This document shows positions 50,996 through 58,712 of a stretch of 64,000 nucleotides of DNA, piece by piece. Source of the DNA: a virus; IMG/VR virus record IMGVR_UViG_3300002835_000070, positions 38,229 through 102,228 of that record; one strand, 5' to 3'. Positions within the stretch are counted from its first letter, which is position 1, and the number at the start of each line of letters is the position of its first letter. The notes under the pieces were generated by a model. The model saw only the letters and a program-made list of their open reading frames with translations, was not told the DNA's origin and searched no databases. The position numbers and the translations under genes are program-made.

Positions 50996-52606
50996 ATGAT
51001 AAAATTAGTAATAGTAGATGGAAGTTTACAAATAAGCATTAATGGTTCAATTATATTAGTAGCACCGAAAAATTCGTGTGCTATTGATGTATTATCTTTA
51101 TACGATGCGATACCTTTAATTGTAATTTACAATAAGTATTTAGGTAATTTCACGAGTATTTTTAGTCAACCTTTGTCTGAATGTACGGACGGTACAGGAA
51201 CTCCTTTTGACGTAAACACATTTATTGATTTTGCGGAAGCAAATCTTGGGTTTGATACATCAGGTGGTGGTGGCGGTGGTTGTAGTCCTTTCAAATATAA
51301 CACTAATGGAACAGGTATAGAACCTTGCTTGGGTAGTAACTATGCGAGTGGGGATTTATCCACTATTGGCGGTGGTTCTACAAATACTGCGAGTGGTATT
51401 CACTCAACAATTGGTGGTGGGGATTGCATAACCGCTGATGGCGACCATTCTTTTGTAGGCGGTGGTTTATGTAATACGGCAACAGGTGGATGTTCGACAA
51501 TTGGTGGTGGAATTAGTAATACCGCTTCGGGTAATAATTCAACCGTTAGTGGTGGGAAATGTAACACTTCTTCTTGTGATTTAGCAAATATCAGTGGTGG
51601 TATTTCAAACACTTCCTCTGGTTACGCTTCAGTAATTGGTGGCGGTACAGGAAATGCTTCTTCTACTGTTAATTCAACAGTAGGTGGTGGAGGTAGTAAT
51701 TCGGCTTCAGGTAGTGCTTCAACAGTTAGTGGTGGTTGTGCGAATTTCGCTACTGCTTATAAAACAACTGTTGGTGGTGGTGGTAGTAACTATGCAACTT
51801 CTGACTTGGCTACCATTGGTGGTGGAAGCCAAAATAATGCGGTTGGTTATTGGGCGACAATTTCAGGCGGTAAAGGACAATGGGCTTGTAATAGTGCTTT
51901 TGTAGGAGGTGGTAGATACAATTGTGCTAATGGTTGTAATTCTGTTGTAGTTGGTGGTGGTGGTACATATCCATCGGAGGGTAATATTGCAAGTGGAAAT
52001 ACATCAACAATTAGTGGCGGTAGAGCCAATGCTTCCATAGGAGGCTTTTCAACAATTGGCGGTGGTATTTTTAATAGTGCTTCTGCTAAATATTCAACAG
52101 TTGCAGGGGGTTATAATAATACTGCTTCTGGTTATTCTTCTTTTGTAGGTGGCGGTAATCTTAATACTGCTTCGGGTTTTTATTCAATAATTGGCAGTGG
52201 TAGGAGAAATACTTCTTCTGGTGATTTTTCTACAATCGGAGGAGGTTGTTACAATACTGCTTCTGGCAATAAGTCTTTTATAGGCGGGGGTTATAAAAAT
52301 TGTGTTTCTAATTATGAATATTCATCAATTGTTGGTGGCAAGAGAAATAATACTTATAGTGCTTATTCTTTTATAGGTAATGGTTATCAAAATAAAGTTA
52401 ACGCTGATTTTTCAGCTATATTAGGTGGTAAAAACAATGTTGCTAATTACGCTTGTTCGATGATTGTAGGAGATAATATTACTACAAATAGAATTTGTAC
52501 TACATTTGTAAACAACTTATCTATAATGAATATTCCAACAACTAATCTTGGATTACCGAGTAATTCTGTTTATAAAATAGGTAATCAATTATTTATAGTG
52601 CCTTAA
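50996..52606 (+). CDS. Repeat spike 4 (YadA-head-like) with a distinct base
   Basis: The 536-residue protein has a base (1-85) that differs from spikes 1-3 and matches the adjacent 86-residue protein. A GGGGGG hinge (about 91-96) is followed by one head of 15-residue repeats (about 105-480), and the C-terminal IVGDNITTNRICTTFVNN module shared with spikes 2 and 3. It shows exchange of bases on the same head type. Confidence 0.85.
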   Translation: MIKLVIVDGSLQISINGSIILVAPKNSCAIDVLSLYDAIPLIVIYNKYLGNFTSIFSQPLSECTDGTGTPFDVNTFIDFAEANLGFDTSGGGGGGCSPFKYNTNGTGIEPCLGSNYASGDLSTIGGGSTNTASGIHSTIGGGDCITADGDHSFVGGGLCNTATGGCSTIGGGISNTASGNNSTVSGGKCNTSSCDLANISGGISNTSSGYASVIGGGTGNASSTVNSTVGGGGSNSASGSASTVSGGCANFATAYKTTVGGGGSNYATSDLATIGGGSQNNAVGYWATISGGKGQWACNSAFVGGGRYNCANGCNSVVVGGGGTYPSEGNIASGNTSTISGGRANASIGGFSTIGGGIFNSASAKYSTVAGGYNNTASGYSSFVGGGNLNTASGFYSIIGSGRRNTSSGDFSTIGGGCYNTASGNKSFIGGGYKNCVSNYEYSSIVGGKRNNTYSAYSFIGNGYQNKVNADFSAILGGKNNVANYACSMIVGDNITTNRICTTFVNNLSIMNIPTTNLGLPSNSVYKIGNQLFIVP

Positions 52607-52645
52607 TAAATAAATAAAAAAAAGAATAAAACCGAAATACTTTTT

Positions 52646-52653
52646 TATATTTG
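52646..52653 (+). promoter_or_regulatory. TAnnTTTG -7 element upstream of the surface-chemistry island
   Basis: TATATTTG fits the Bacteroidetes -7 consensus and lies 50 bp before the ATG at 52703, after the last spike stop at 52606. No TTG is found at suitable spacing, so only the -7 is supported. Confidence 0.45.
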
Positions 52654-52702
52654 TATTTCAAAATTGACTTAAAACAATTAAAAACATTTAAAATTAAATA
52701 AA

Positions 52703-53041
52703 ATGGAAAATTTCACAATTCACATCTTCGGTTACGGAGAAACACAGATTAATTCAAAAGATTTATCAGTAAAAGTAAAAACTGATACTCTTACTACTGT
52801 AACGCCATTAGTGGCAGGTATATTCGCTAAAAAACCTGCGGACAACCCAACTTTGATTACAGATTTTCACGCAATAAACCTTTTTGGCTACAAAGACGTT
52901 CGTTGGATGGCAAAAGACGGTTTTAATGTAAAAGACGATGAGGATTTAAAACCTCTTATTGACGCTTTAATTGCTGAATTGCAAACCGCAAAAGACAACG
53001 AACCTGCACCTGCTCCAAAAGTAGCTAAAGCAACAACATAA
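52703..53041 (+). CDS. Small soluble protein with Ala/Pro/Lys tail (112 aa)
   Basis: A compact alpha/beta domain (about 1-95; FTIHIFGYGETQINSKDL, DFHAINLFGYKDVRWMA) is followed by a PAPAPKVAKA tail. It has its own -7 element. It may be a phage-type early or virion accessory protein. No clear function is seen. Confidence 0.7.
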   Translation: MENFTIHIFGYGETQINSKDLSVKVKTDTLTTVTPLVAGIFAKKPADNPTLITDFHAINLFGYKDVRWMAKDGFNVKDDEDLKPLIDALIAELQTAKDNEPAPAPKVAKATT

Positions 53042-53057
53042 AAAAATAGTCGTTATG

Positions 53058-53095
53058 CTCGGTAACTCCTCTTTGTTAATTCAAATGAAACCGAG
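53058..53095 (+). promoter_or_regulatory. Inverted repeat in the sulfotransferase leader
   Basis: CTCGGT (53058-53063) and ACCGAG (53090-53095) could pair around a 26-base loop in the leader between 53041 and the ATG at 53133. No U-run follows, so it is not a normal terminator; it could be an operator or leader structure. Confidence 0.25.
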
Positions 53096-53132
53096 TGAAA
53101 GACTAAATTAAGAAACTAATATAACAACAAGT

Positions 53133-53951
53133 ATGAAAAAGATTTTTTTCAATTCCTCGCTCCCACGTTCGGGGTCAACTTTGATTTCTAATTTGATTGC
53201 TCAAAACCCTGAATTTTATGCAACGCCTACTTCGGGTCTTTCAGATTTAGTTTTGAGTGCTAAAAACTCTTACGCACATTCCCAAGCAATTTTGTCGCAA
53301 GACAAGGAAGCAATGGAAAAAGCATTTTTAGGATTTTGCCGTGCAGGTATGCAAGGCTTTTTCAATAACCTTACCCCAAAAGAATTTATCGTTGATAAAA
53401 GCAGAGATTGGGGTATTCACTACAACTTATTGAATTTACTATATCCTGAACCAAAGATAATTTGTATGGTTAGAGATGTTCGAGCCGTATATGCTTCTAT
53501 GGAAAAGAACTTTAGGAAAAATCCGCATAAAGAAAGTCATATCCAAAATGCACCACAATTAATTGGAACTACATTAGACAAGAGAATTAATATATGGGCT
53601 GACGGAGTACCTGTTGGTATTGCGTTAGACCGTTTGAAAGATGTTATCCAACAAGGTTTAGATAAAAAAATATTATTTATTCGCTATGAAGACTTAATGG
53701 CGAACCCTGAAAACGAAATGAAGCGTTTGTATGAGTATTTAGGACAACCTTACTACGACAAACACGATTTTGAAAACATTACCCAACATACTCACGAAAA
53801 CGATGCTATTCACGGTATCTATGGCGACCATCAGTTAAGACCTAAATTCGAGAGATTACCTGACGATTTTTACGATGTTTTAGGTTACGAACTTTGCCAA
53901 TCCATAAAAAACACTTATGCTTGGTTCTACAAATATTTTGCGTACCTATAA
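53133..53951 (+). CDS. Sulfotransferase
   Basis: The 272-residue protein begins KIFFNSSLPRSGSTL, the 5'-phosphosulfate-binding loop (PRSGST at 11-16). ICMVRDVRAVYASM (Arg114, Ser122) matches the 3'-phosphate-binding motif of PAPS-dependent sulfotransferases. The enzyme would transfer sulfate from PAPS to a carbohydrate, protein or lipid. Adenylylsulfate kinase, which makes PAPS, is encoded just downstream. No membrane segment is seen. The acceptor is unknown. Confidence 0.85.
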   Translation: MKKIFFNSSLPRSGSTLISNLIAQNPEFYATPTSGLSDLVLSAKNSYAHSQAILSQDKEAMEKAFLGFCRAGMQGFFNNLTPKEFIVDKSRDWGIHYNLLNLLYPEPKIICMVRDVRAVYASMEKNFRKNPHKESHIQNAPQLIGTTLDKRINIWADGVPVGIALDRLKDVIQQGLDKKILFIRYEDLMANPENEMKRLYEYLGQPYYDKHDFENITQHTHENDAIHGIYGDHQLRPKFERLPDDFYDVLGYELCQSIKNTYAWFYKYFAYL

Positions 53952-53963
53952 AATAATCGAAGT

Positions 53964-54107
53964 ATGTATGTAGAAAATATTTTAAGTTACAGTTTTAAAG
54001 AATTTAATTGTAGCTTTTATCCCTGCGTTGTAAATATGTTTATTCCAAAGGGTAGTATAGCATTAGTTCAAGTAAATAGTAAAAAATCAAAAACAATAGA
54101 GGTATGA
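53964..54107 (+). CDS. Small protein overlapping the adenylylsulfate kinase gene (47 aa)
   Basis: It begins MYVENILSYSFKEFNCSFYP and is mostly beta/aromatic, with an IPKGSIALVQVNS segment. Its stop overlaps the next ATG as ATGA, so it is probably translated with the kinase. Function is unknown. The position between sulfotransferase and kinase hints at an auxiliary role. Confidence 0.6.
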   Translation: MYVENILSYSFKEFNCSFYPCVVNMFIPKGSIALVQVNSKKSKTIEV

Positions 54108-54559
54108 TATTCTGGTTCACGGGGCAACCCCACGCAGGAAAAACAACATTAGCTAAACACTTAAAAAAAGCCTTAATGTTAAATAATCCTTTAAGAGAAG
54201 TTCATTTAGTTGACGGAGATGATTTGAGAAGAATTATCAACAATAAAGACTATTCAGAACAAGGACGTAGAAATAATATTAGTCAAGCAATAGCAATCGC
54301 TAAATATTTAGACGACAACTCAAAAAATGACGTTGTAGTGTCTTTAGTTTCTCCGTATAAAGATTTAAGAGATGAATTGAAGTCAAGTACCGATGTAATT
54401 GAAATTTACGTTCATACGACAGATATTAGAGGTAGAGAAGCGTTTCACGTTGCGGACTACCAAGCACCAACAGAATCATTCATTGATATTGACACAACAG
54501 GTGTTGATGTATTGGTTTCGGTAAATGAGTTGTTAAATAAAATCAAAAACTTTTCATAA
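54104..54559 (+). CDS. cysC: Adenylylsulfate (APS) kinase
   Basis: The 151-residue protein has a Walker A motif GQPHAGKTT (7-15), DGDDLRR (38-43) followed by SEQGRRNNI, the SPYKDLRD segment (83-90), and YQAPTESF (119-126). This motif order matches APS kinases, which phosphorylate adenylylsulfate to PAPS. It is slightly shorter than typical bacterial CysC. Neighbouring sulfotransferase and DUF2061 genes make the assignment strong. It would supply the sulfate donor in infected cells. Confidence 0.85.
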   Translation: MIFWFTGQPHAGKTTLAKHLKKALMLNNPLREVHLVDGDDLRRIINNKDYSEQGRRNNISQAIAIAKYLDDNSKNDVVVSLVSPYKDLRDELKSSTDVIEIYVHTTDIRGREAFHVADYQAPTESFIDIDTTGVDVLVSVNELLNKIKNFS

Positions 54560-54870
54560 TGAAAAAAGAAAAAAAAGTAGTCAATACTAAAGATGCAATC
54601 CAAAGATTCATTTTAGAGGGGCGTGAGGTAATTCTTAAAAAAGAAAACGAAACTTCATTTGTCCGCATCAGGTTTAATAACGAAGATACAGACGGTACTC
54701 AAAAGTGGCGTGTATTAATCAATGGAAACGAACTTCGTACAAGCGAAGTAATCATAAACTGCCAAGTAAGAACTCTTACCGAAGAGTTTCAAGAAATAGG
54801 TATAAAACACCATATTGTTTGCGATGCCAAAGAAATCATATTTAAAAATAATATAGCAACTGTAAATTAA
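54559..54870 (+). CDS. Small soluble protein coupled to APS kinase (103 aa)
   Basis: TAATG overlaps the kinase stop. The product is beta-rich: KDAIQRFILEGREVILKKEN, SFVRIRFNNEDTDGTQ, KWRVLINGNEL, then VIINCQVRT. There is no membrane helix or named motif. Tight coupling suggests a partner of the sulfation pathway; this is not shown by sequence. Confidence 0.65.
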   Translation: MKKEKKVVNTKDAIQRFILEGREVILKKENETSFVRIRFNNEDTDGTQKWRVLINGNELRTSEVIINCQVRTLTEEFQEIGIKHHIVCDAKEIIFKNNIATVN

Positions 54871-54877
54871 TAAGAAA

Positions 54878-55843
54878 TTGGCAGTTAAAAGAGATATTTC
54901 AGGGCAAAAATTCGGTAAGTTATTTGTTTTAAATTACGTTGAAACGATTAATAAATTGAGTAGATATTTATGTCAATGCGATTGTGGGAATCAAAAAGTT
55001 TTAATTAGAAAACTTTTGGTAAGAGGGGATACAAAAAGTTGTGGTTGTGATTGGATACAATCTAATTCTAAACATCATTCTTGGAAAGGCTACGAAGACT
55101 TACCTTTAGATTTTTTTACAAGTATAAAAAGAGGTGCAAAATCAAGAAATATAGAATTTGATATAAAAATTGAGGACATTTGGGATTTATTGATTCGTCA
55201 AGATAGAAAATGTGCGCTTTCGGGATTAGATTTGAAGTTTTCTCAAATAAGAAAAAACAGAACGTTACAAACAACTTGCTCTTTAGATAGAATAGATAGT
55301 TCTATGGGATATGTAAATGGTAATGTTCAATGGGTTCATAAGAAAATAAATATAATGAAGAATAAACTATTAGACAAAGATTTTATATATTTCTGCGTTA
55401 TGGTTTCTAATAAAAATAAAAAAAGAATTATTATGGAAAATAATGAATGGAAAGAGTTTATTCACGTTGAATCCTCTTTAAAAAGAAAAAAAAATCAATT
55501 TGCTATGTTTTGCGGTAGGTTTCAACCTTTACACGAAAGTCATATAGCATTATTTAAAAGGGCGTTAGAAAATAAAAAAAATGTTCTTATATGTATTAGA
55601 GATGGGGAGATAAATGAAAAAAATCCGTTTACCGCTGAAGAAGTTTTAAAAAAAATATCCGAGTATTACAAAAATCTCATCAAAAAGGGCAAAGTTAAAG
55701 TTATGATAATCCCTGATATTTGTTCAGTAGAATTTGGACGTGGCGTTGGATATGATATTATTGAGCATATACCACCTACTGAAGTAGCGGAAATTTCTGC
55801 TACTAAAATTAGAGAGCAAATGCGTAAAGACGGTACGCTATGA
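54878..55843 (+). CDS. HNH endonuclease fused in frame to a HIGH-type nucleotidyltransferase
   Basis: A TTG start begins a 321-residue ORF. Residues 1-185 are a homing endonuclease: zinc-like CQCDCGN and SCGC, then CALSGLDL, CSLDRIDSSMGYVNGNVQW and the NIMKN helix. Met186 (ATG 55433, ideal AAGAATTATTATGG context) opens a complete adenylyl/cytidylyltransferase domain: MFCGRFQPLHESHIALFKRA with HxxH-type His219/His222, and ISATKIR at 306-312. The second half probably also has its own start. The endonuclease seems to have inserted just upstream and lost its own stop. The nucleotidyltransferase's substrate is unclear (NMN-, CTP- or ATP-sulfurylase-like). Confidence 0.8.
   Translation: MAVKRDISGQKFGKLFVLNYVETINKLSRYLCQCDCGNQKVLIRKLLVRGDTKSCGCDWIQSNSKHHSWKGYEDLPLDFFTSIKRGAKSRNIEFDIKIEDIWDLLIRQDRKCALSGLDLKFSQIRKNRTLQTTCSLDRIDSSMGYVNGNVQWVHKKINIMKNKLLDKDFIYFCVMVSNKNKKRIIMENNEWKEFIHVESSLKRKKNQFAMFCGRFQPLHESHIALFKRALENKKNVLICIRDGEINEKNPFTAEEVLKKISEYYKNLIKKGKVKVMIIPDICSVEFGRGVGYDIIEHIPPTEVAEISATKIREQMRKDGTL
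55433..55843 (+). other. Probable internal translation start giving the nucleotidyltransferase alone
   Basis: The ATG at 55433-55435, in frame with the longer ORF, is preceded by an A-rich leader equal in quality to the starts of independent genes here. It would give a 136-residue nucleotidyltransferase that begins shortly before the GRFQPLHESH motif. This would be the original gene, with the endonuclease inserted before it. Confidence 0.55.
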
Positions 55844-56193
55844 TAAAAAATTCAACCTACTTTGTAGATATTGACGGTACTATCATTAAGTATAGACCTT
55901 TTGCGTTATTACTATCAATCGAGCCTGAACCAATTCAGGATGTGATAAATAAAATCAATAAGGAATACGACAACGGAAGTCATATTGTGGTTACAACCGC
56001 AAGACCTGAAATGATGAAAACACAGACCAAGAAAGAACTAAAAAAGGTTGGGTTAAAATACAATCAATTAGTAATGGGTATTGGTAGAGGAACAAGATAT
56101 TTGCTTAATGATGTTGACCCCGAAAATCCAAGAGTTAAAAGGGCAGTAGGCGTTAATTTGATTAGAAACAAAGGGCTTAAAGGAAAATCTTAA
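55840..56193 (+). CDS. HAD-like phosphatase
   Basis: It begins KNSTYFVDIDGTIIKY, the DxDGT nucleophile motif of the haloacid dehalogenase superfamily. VVTTARP follows at about 47-53 (motif II Thr), and NDVDPENP near 93-100 gives the acidic motif. The 117 residues are short, as for C0-cap HAD proteins. It starts four bases before the previous stop (ATGA). It may hydrolyse a nucleotide-sugar or adenosine phosphate in the pathway. Confidence 0.75.
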   Translation: MIKNSTYFVDIDGTIIKYRPFALLLSIEPEPIQDVINKINKEYDNGSHIVVTTARPEMMKTQTKKELKKVGLKYNQLVMGIGRGTRYLLNDVDPENPRVKRAVGVNLIRNKGLKGKS

Positions 56194-56194
56194 A

Positions 56195-56539
56195 ATGACA
56201 AAAGAACAAGACGGTAATATGGTTGATATTTCAACCATTAAAACTATTTCAAATGAAGAATATAGTTTTTTAATAAAACAAAGTTTAGAGTTAGATAAAC
56301 TCAAAAGCGAAAAATCAGTAAGTTATAAAAGACATATTTTCAAAGCAATAAGTTATAGAGCGTTGGGTTCATTCCAAACCTGCCTAATATCTTATTTCTT
56401 TACAGGTAACTTTTTGGTAGCAGGAAGTATTGGGCTAACGGAAATTTGCATAAAGCCAATTATATATTTCTTTCACGAAAGAATGTGGTACACGTTTTCA
56501 GATTATGGGGTAAAAAATAAAGAAATTAAAAAAGACTAA
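56195..56539 (+). CDS. DUF2061-type membrane protein
   Basis: The 114-residue protein has a hydrophilic start and then KRHIFKAISYRALGSFQTCL with two hydrophobic segments (about 55-72 and 74-92) and KPIIYFFHERMW, the signature of DUF2061, a small membrane family I associate with adenylylsulfate-kinase loci and fusions. It may transport or anchor intermediates. Its presence strengthens the sulfate-activation reading of the island. Confidence 0.75.
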   Translation: MTKEQDGNMVDISTIKTISNEEYSFLIKQSLELDKLKSEKSVSYKRHIFKAISYRALGSFQTCLISYFFTGNFLVAGSIGLTEICIKPIIYFFHERMWYTFSDYGVKNKEIKKD

Positions 56540-56542
56540 ATT

Positions 56543-57418
56543 ATGTTACAAAATTTAATATTTCAGGTGGATGGGGGTTTAGGTAAGTCTATTATGGCTA
56601 CCGCAGTATTAAAAGCAATTAGAAAACAATATAAAAAGGCAAACATAATTGTCGTTACAGGTTATCCTGATGTTTTCATAGCGAATCCGAATGTAAATAA
56701 AGTTTTAAGGCACGACCAATTAAGCGGTATTTACGAGAAAAATATTATGAATAAAGACTGCAAAGTATTTGTTTCAGACCCTTATCATACGTCTGACTTC
56801 ATTACCGAAAGCAAACACTTAATTCAAATTTGGTGCGAAATGTATGGAGTGGAGTATAATGGCGAAATGCCTGAATTATTTTTGCTTAAAGCGGAAAAAG
56901 AGTACTTCGAGCCTTTTTATAGATTGGATAAGCCAATTTTAGCAATTCAAACTAACGGTGGTGCGGTTAACCAACCTTTAAAGTATTCTTGGACAAGGGA
57001 TATTCCTGCTCCAATTGTAGAGCAAGTTATTGAACGATACAAAAACGATTATGCTATTTTGCATATTAAAAGAGAAGACCAAATATCATTTCCAAATACG
57101 TTACAAGCACTCGATAATTTTAGAAGTATTGCAGTGGCACTAACACTTTCTCAAAAAAGATTATTGATTGATAGTAGCGCATTGCATATAGCTACTTCAC
57201 TTAATTTGCCGTCAGTAGTTGCTTGGGTAGGAACAAATCCTAAAGTTTTTGGATATGAGATGCACAATAACATTGTAGCCAACACTCCGACAAGACAAGT
57301 TGATTTAGACCACCCTAATTATCAGAAATATCTTTTGTTTCAGGACATTAGCACAATCCCTTACAACGACTTAAATGAAGTGCTTGATGTTAAAAACATA
57401 ATAACCGCTTTGGCATAA
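56543..57418 (+). CDS. Glycosyltransferase family 9-like (heptosyltransferase-like)
   Basis: The 291-residue protein opens LIFQVDGGLGKSIMATAVLK, the Gly-rich N-lobe loop of GT-B heptosyltransferases, and later has LILSQKRLLIDSSALHIA- and NLPSVVAWVG-type segments (about 220-255) matching the C-lobe donor site of ADP-heptose transferases. This could modify an LPS-like or virion glycan. The catalytic Asp/Glu was not verified. It completes the sulfation/glycan island. Confidence 0.75.
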   Translation: MLQNLIFQVDGGLGKSIMATAVLKAIRKQYKKANIIVVTGYPDVFIANPNVNKVLRHDQLSGIYEKNIMNKDCKVFVSDPYHTSDFITESKHLIQIWCEMYGVEYNGEMPELFLLKAEKEYFEPFYRLDKPILAIQTNGGAVNQPLKYSWTRDIPAPIVEQVIERYKNDYAILHIKREDQISFPNTLQALDNFRSIAVALTLSQKRLLIDSSALHIATSLNLPSVVAWVGTNPKVFGYEMHNNIVANTPTRQVDLDHPNYQKYLLFQDISTIPYNDLNEVLDVKNIITALA

Positions 57419-57524
57419 TTAATAAGTTATTGATTATTAATTTAATGATAAACATAGCTAAAAAATATTATTTGAAATAATTTTTTTGTACTATTGCTAT
57501 ATTTATTAAAAATTTCGTTGTAAA

Positions 57525-58007
57525 ATGGCAGAATTTGAATTAGCAGAAAAACAACAAATACTCTTTGAACTCGATGGCTCTAATTTTATAGAGCAAGTTG
57601 AGCGCATAGAGAATTTGTTGATTAATAGCGGTTCTTCGGATGTTTATGTAGGTAATACTGAAGAATTGCCTTTAACTCATTCGTTTTCAGATGGCATTTA
57701 TACAAGGGAGATTTTTATAAAAAAAGGATTGTTTGCGATAGGTAAAATTCATAAATCTGACCACACATTTTTCTTAATGAAAGGTAAGTTATTGTTGTGT
57801 ACCGAAGATGGAGTAAAAGAAATAGAAGCACCGTATTACGGAAATGCAAGTGCAGGAACTAAAAGAGTTGCTATTGCTTTGGAGGACACAGTTTTTGTAA
57901 ACGTACACCCAAATCCAAACAATATAAAAGAAATAGAGAAATTAGAAGATATTTTTGTTGTGTCTTCTTATGAGGAATATAAAAATTATAAACTTTTAAA
58001 TAAGTAA
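57525..58007 (+). CDS. Cupin-fold protein
   Basis: Residues about 58-140 read YTREIFIKKGLFAIGKIHKSDH, FFLMKGKLLLCTEDG, then AGTKRVAIALEDTVFVNVHPN. The Gly- and His-spaced strands match single-domain cupins seen in phage genomes. His and Asp/Glu residues near the KSDH segment and the final HPN may bind metal. The N-terminal 55 residues are helical. It opens the second virion block, preceded by a 106-bp AT-rich gap without a good promoter match. Confidence 0.7.
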   Translation: MAEFELAEKQQILFELDGSNFIEQVERIENLLINSGSSDVYVGNTEELPLTHSFSDGIYTREIFIKKGLFAIGKIHKSDHTFFLMKGKLLLCTEDGVKEIEAPYYGNASAGTKRVAIALEDTVFVNVHPNPNNIKEIEKLEDIFVVSSYEEYKNYKLLNK

Positions 58008-58009
58008 CT

Positions 58010-58363
58010 ATGGCGTATATAGCAGTAGCGGGAATAGCAGTTTCAATTGGAACAAGCCTTTTAGGGGCAGAGGCATCAAAAAAAGAAGCGAAAAAACAAC
58101 GTGATTTGATGTTTAATCTTAAGATGGCTGAAATCGCTTCTAATGAAGCGATAAAATACGAAGAAATAAAAACTATTGCCGAAACTGAACGTATAAGAAT
58201 ACTTACAGATTCTTTAGGAAAATATCGAGAAGCCTTACAAAAAGAAAGTACAATACGTTTGCGTGATACTTGGATTTATATTGCGGGTCTTGGTTGCGGA
58301 ACAAGTGCAATCTATGCTGTTTCATTAATGTTTTCTAAATCAAAATCAAATGGAAACGCATAG
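58010..58363 (+). CDS. Two-TM membrane protein with central coiled coil (117 aa)
   Basis: A hydrophobic N-terminus (AVAGIAVSIGTSLLG), a charged coiled coil (about 22-85) and a transmembrane segment (about 88-108) give the same plan as 23159-23464. The coding end overlaps the next start by 14 bp. It is probably a virion membrane component. Confidence 0.7.
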   Translation: MAYIAVAGIAVSIGTSLLGAEASKKEAKKQRDLMFNLKMAEIASNEAIKYEEIKTIAETERIRILTDSLGKYREALQKESTIRLRDTWIYIAGLGCGTSAIYAVSLMFSKSKSNGNA

Positions 58364-58712
58364 TAGTTTTTTAAATGCAGGTGGTGCAGGATGGACTGAA
58401 TTAGTTGGAGTTGCCGTTGAATTTGGTGTTGGTTATTTAACTGCCAAAAATTTAAACGAAGAAAATAAAAAGTTACTTCAGCAAATGGCTGAACTCGATG
58501 CTCAATCAGCAGAAAATCTAAAGAAAGCGTTAAATGCTTCTTTAACCGAAGTTGCAAAAACACAGGTTATATATGAGTTTCTTAATGATAAAAAAATTAA
58601 AGAATTAGAAGAAGACACAAAAAGAAAAAGAATTTTACCTTTAATCGGATTAGGAGTTGGAGTAGTTGTACTTGCTTTAATCTTTTATAAATTACACAGA
58701 CAAAATGGATAG
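58350..58712 (+). CDS. Membrane protein with coiled coil and C-terminal TM (120 aa)
   Basis: The N-terminal 30 residues are Gly/Val-rich and hydrophobic (GWTELVGVAVEFGVGYL). A coiled coil follows (about 35-90), then a basic KRKR and one transmembrane helix (about 95-114). It overlaps both neighbours by several bases, showing strong packing of this block. Confidence 0.7.
   Translation: METHSSFLNAGGAGWTELVGVAVEFGVGYLTAKNLNEENKKLLQQMAELDAQSAENLKKALNASLTEVAKTQVIYEFLNDKKIKELEEDTKRKRILPLIGLGVGVVVLALIFYKLHRQNG

Follow-up and report, generated by a model that had tools for sequence, protein, structure and literature searches.

The window, a 64,000-nucleotide stretch of a 102,228-base virus record, contains a single plus-strand reading frame (54878–55843) that begins with TTG, spans 321 codons and has no internal stop codon. 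Residues 1–185 (54878–55432; 185 codons from the TTG, with no stop of their own) match families of phage HNH/endonucleases (phrog_3322, 1.9e-22; phrog_374, 3.8e-18; also phrog_3118), and alignment of this part to stop-bearing, free-standing relatives spans its full length. Residues 186–321 (55433–55843) match cytidylyltransferase-like nucleotidyltransferases (NTases; PF01467, 1.2e-6); this HxGH-type NTase keeps its native ATG at 55433 and ends with a TGA at 55841–55843. We consider the NTase to be complete because its relatives share both its start Met and its end position. Hence, the open reading frame, the PHROG and Pfam matches and the shared ends of the relatives all support the initial description of this locus, in an earlier note, as a stop-less endonuclease running into a complete NTase. 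By start-context score, the final 20 nt of the endonuclease (55413–55432) form an A-rich leader for the NTase start. Upstream on the same strand are an APS-kinase-like gene of the same cassette (54104–54559; PF01583, 1.5e-16), which is a conserved neighbour, and a small ORF, orf103 (54559–54870), whose stop adjoins the NTase ATG in relatives with an empty site. Downstream, the ATG of a HAD-like ORF (55840–56193, plus strand) overlaps the NTase stop; its weak match to HAD_PNKP is below the Pfam cut-off. Public phage records with matches numbered 135 for the HNH part and 53 for the NTase.

The HNH label is of only moderate confidence, and catalysis is uncertain, because Pfam HNH models gave no match to this part of the protein and its putative HNH motif reads SLDRI, with no canonical catalytic His apparent. 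The textbook HNH motif has a His at the position where SLDRI stands here. Matches among predicted viral structures include proteins named HNH endonuclease. A fold search against solved structures gave no convincing match for the HNH part, and weak matches to phosphopantetheine adenylyltransferase and ATP-sulfurylase folds that fit the NTase part. A structure model of the fusion (54 rows; mean pLDDT 75.8, pTM 0.46) has two domains, and the modelled linker that joins them is probably flexible, with residues 164–187 and 189–199 at pLDDT below 50.

We next compared the locus with NTase relatives in viral contigs, keeping the best 80 of 189. Many of these begin at or near the Met of the window NTase, and the MENNEW start is shared with contig L002, which has an empty site. 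L002 is one of the close relatives that have no endonuclease, and a single nucleotide separates the end of its orf103 from the NTase ATG. The site is filled in L001, where the same orf103 end is followed by an HNH ATG, with the NTase ATG 555 bases further on. The L002 and L001 junctions together indicate that the insert extends from one start codon to the next and that its length, 555 or 552 bp, is a multiple of three. Thus, the comparison with insertion-free viruses that had been suggested for locating the junction places both ends of the insert at start codons. An HNH of the fused type lies directly upstream of the NTase in 4 of the 80 loci (the best 80 of 189 relatives) and is fused to it in one of those four; fusion in 1 of 80 NTase loci is far from the conservation across all homologues that would have spoken against a mobile insert. 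In L074 (5001–5605), two NTase copies lie in tandem, covering query residues 22–104 and 22–136.

Three other contigs, L001, L083 and L084, have the same fusion as the window, with no stop codon at the junction. The HNH parts of the fused copies share 76–89% nucleotide identity, and the NTases are 90% (L001), 88% (L083, where the contig ends after 56 NTase codons) and 69% (L084) identical to that of the window. Pairwise dN/dS (NG86) for the HNH part of the fused copies is about 0.1–0.2, indicative of purifying selection. The HNH start codon is TTG in the window and ATG in the other three. A scan for the fused-tail pattern found, among contigs, only L001, L083 and L084, and a junction-pattern scan returned 31 stretches, seven of them with HNH and NTase, all seven on contigs already found. 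Prokaryote genomes scanned with the fusion alignment (two peptide patterns) yielded no relative.

The closest stop-bearing relatives of the HNH part are found immediately before genes of the same NTase family. In L049, L050 and L051, three contigs with identical HNH and NTase sequences, the HNH ends ...K-K-I-TGA, and this TGA is part of an ATGA at the NTase start. The HNH stop of L085 ends 11 nt within the NTase, and that of L146 is separated from the NTase start by a 1-nt gap. In L060, only the last ~16 HNH codons remain before the NTase, a remnant that we read as a probable deletion scar. A maximum-likelihood tree built from 81 HNHs places the seven NTase-site sequences together (support 93/73) and unites the four fused HNHs with 100/100, these values being rough since the bootstrap had not settled. 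The NTase-site trait requires one change on this tree, as compared to a mean of 6.8 when shuffled, and 0 of 500 shuffles were as low. There are thus at least seven NTase-site HNHs, and among the at least 79 loci listed in a broader scan, the NTase was found only in L227, on the contig of L146. These sequences place the endonuclease in a small lineage dedicated to the site directly upstream of this NTase. The earlier idea of a mobile endonuclease fused in frame to the 5' end of an intact NTase, with the original start kept inside, is for the most part supported, and is refined in that other members of the lineage at this site keep their stops.

The NTase that follows the HNH in L146 (2604–3005) lacks the C-terminal SATKIRE end, has a premature stop and is possibly a broken gene. 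At the family C terminus, 78 of the 87 HNH loci examined end within 27 residues. Other long tails past this end were seen in L193 and L196 (94 residues), L194 (47) and L180 (53), and stand-alone relatives of these tails were not found among the loci compared, nor was one found for the L193 tail in phage records. The 94-residue C-terminal extension in L193 (4535–4825) and L196 may represent a second fusion in the same HNH family. Two further candidates for fusions, L092 and L169, were rejected as tandem HNHs.

Among gene starts in the window, position -3 and the region of -12 are occupied by A and position -1 by T; no Shine-Dalgarno signal was apparent in the base frequencies. This context resembles the A-rich, Bacteroidota-like one described for Flavobacterium johnsoniae, in which initiation is promoted by A at -3 and -12/-13 (PMC6847099); by analogy, the host is probably a member of the Bacteroidota. 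We scored start contexts with a model trained on 67 ORFs of the window, leaving out the fused-ORF region. The ATG at 55433 scored 11.51, which equals or exceeds all 67 training starts and is higher than all 252 internal in-frame ATGs. The corresponding ATGs of L001, L083 and L084 scored 5.97, 5.97 and 7.39, and each of the four scores (5.97–11.51) is reached by no more than one of the 252 internal ATGs. Eight NTase starts at empty sites scored between -5.98 and 5.74. The TTG start of the window HNH has a middling context (3.26), and use of TTG rather than ATG (54863–54890 region) may lower production of the fusion in the window. When codons were resampled with the tail peptide held fixed, the mean score for the window was 8.5 and 774 of 5000 resampled sequences reached 11.51; the observed score was reached in 975 of 5000 for L001 and 2273 of 5000 for L084. 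By this control, the Lys/Asn-rich tail peptide, rather than synonymous choice, carries most of the start signal. The claim of an excellent start context at 55433 is thus borne out, with the tail peptide explaining most of it.

We favour, as the probable explanation, that a homing endonuclease gene inserted at a start codon takes over the translation slot of its target, and that the target is then expressed both as a fusion and from its old start. An HNH-type gene of the one-site lineage would have entered the phage NTase gene precisely at its start codon, the HNH start codon replacing that of the NTase just past the stop of the upstream ORF, so that the HNH would inherit the NTase's translation slot. 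Because the HNH has no stop, ribosomes would continue into the NTase and produce an HNH-NTase fusion protein. The native NTase ATG is retained inside the frame, its A-rich leader now supplied by the last codons of the endonuclease, and for this reason the NTase is probably made on its own as well. The element would in this way spare its target gene without splicing. The sequences show the insertion and its empty site, the lack of a stop in four contigs, purifying selection, a single lineage at this site and the start context; DNA cleavage, homing, two products and NTase activity of the fusion are what we infer.

It is also conceivable, though rather unlikely, that a stop codon was lost by chance in an ancestor, that the NTase is made only as a working fusion, and that the internal ATG arose incidentally from a Lys/Asn-rich tail. 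One such event would be enough, as the fused copies form one clade, and the tail peptide does account for most of the start score. However, none of the 16,589 in-frame codon boundaries in the window genes reaches 11.51, and the Met and A-rich tail are retained in all four fused copies despite their divergence.

Less probable still is a domesticated two-domain enzyme, in which the nuclease part would now help the NTase to bind DNA or RNA, as a module of it, and homing would have been lost. Maintenance of the fusion, purifying selection on both parts and the lack of an apparent canonical catalytic His are consistent with this explanation. By contrast, free-standing versions occur at the same site, the fusion is patchily present, and the flanks of L001 are closer to those of the empty L002 than to those of the other fused contigs (APS kinase 96%, orf103 76% and DUF2061 90% identity between L001 and L002). 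In favour of our main explanation, the first 36 NTase residues of L001 are, unlike its flanks, closest to those of the window (97%) and L083 (94%), with 78% identity to L002. This pattern is as expected from transfer of the insert with co-conversion of flanking sequence; possibly, the insert was instead lost from L002 by recombination. In six of six fused pairs, the HNH has a larger fraction of identical codons than any neighbouring segment other than the first 36 codons of the NTase, and codon bias can explain part of this. Identity at four-fold sites is clearly above that of the neighbours only in the L001-L083 pair, so synonymous sites give weak evidence of recent movement, and we have downgraded synonymous identity as proof of homing, the four-fold counts giving no support in most pairs. 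Finally, an assembly or sequencing artefact, in which this one metagenome contig lost a stop (near 55420, as the earlier note had cautioned), is refuted with near certainty by the same stop-less fusion in L001, L083 and L084, three sequence-diverged contigs from other metagenomes.

We also compared the favoured arrangement, start-codon insertion with in-frame read-through, with known mobile elements. An Rfam scan of 52000–58500 found no match up to E=1. A group I or II intron was rejected because of this lack of an Rfam match and the lack of a 5' exon, the NTase beginning only after the insert; an intein was rejected because there is no N-extein, that is, no NTase sequence before the insert. 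As for free-standing HNH homing endonucleases, the element is akin to phage HNH endonucleases (by PHROG and viral folds, with no Pfam match) and occupies one fixed position in some contigs while others show that position empty (L001 filled, L002 empty). The relatives in L049, L085 and L146 have their own stops, which the window, L001, L083 and L084 lack. The locus differs, as the earlier note asserted, from introns and inteins, and from free-standing HNH genes in its missing stop.

Free-standing seg and mob endonucleases of T4, which can overlap the gene before them and contain promoters for the gene after them, are similar in their intergenic insertion, frequent lack of an own promoter, use of the upstream gene's expression, and embedding of downstream signals in the endonuclease gene, as described in PMC2988022; they differ in having their own stop and embedded promoters, whereas the window HNH lacks a stop and has a translation start embedded in the frame. 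An HNH gene of Hafnia phage Ca is described as wedged between two genes and overlapping the terminase start (PMC8861465), as in L049 and L085; unlike in the window, it is in another frame, has its own stop and is not fused. Hidden HNHs of the ShiLan type in phage methylases likewise are non-splicing insertions that leave the target frame open (PMC11855218); they lie out of frame inside the gene, whereas the window HNH is in the same frame at the 5' end, and we rejected this class on that basis. Fungal mitochondrial fusions of rps3 with a LAGLIDADG endonuclease also place a homing endonuclease ORF in frame with a protein gene without its being spliced out (PMC10448965); they involve another nuclease family, lie inside an rnl group I intron and are mitochondrial, and the parts of that account on which we draw do not describe a start-codon-to-start-codon insertion. 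Fungal rps3-endonuclease fusions, and HNH genes that overlap the gene downstream, are thus already known; our searches of open-access text turned up no account of a phage gene whose start codon carries an in-frame HNH without a stop.

Mobile endonucleases usually spare their targets by splicing, as introns and inteins do, or by an intergenic location. A third and unusual way would be insertion at a start codon, where the frame is read through into the target and the internal start is retained, and the natural series at one site (empty, overlapping stop, scar, fused) makes its steps testable. The DNA-cutting gene upstream of the NTase in some phages is likely selfish. More tentatively, the fusion may act as a retention device: with the 3' end of the HNH serving as the NTase's translation leader, deletion of the element would be penalised, and loss would leave a 3' remnant like that in L060. 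If so, the family would persist without splicing by replacing the start signal of its target, at first through a stop-start overlap and later through fusion.

Gene order around the NTase is shared: of the 22 loci compared, 17 have a sulfotransferase and 21 have an APS-kinase-like gene. The sulfotransferase, the APS-kinase-like gene and the NTase (53133–55843 in the window) travel together across these loci, and the weak ATP-sulfurylase matches of the NTase suggest a phage-encoded cassette for sulfate activation and sulfation. Further upstream, 50996–52606 encodes a 536-aa protein that consists mostly of GGG-x-N-T-A-S-G-x-x-S-T-I-like repeats and is perhaps a fibre or adhesin.
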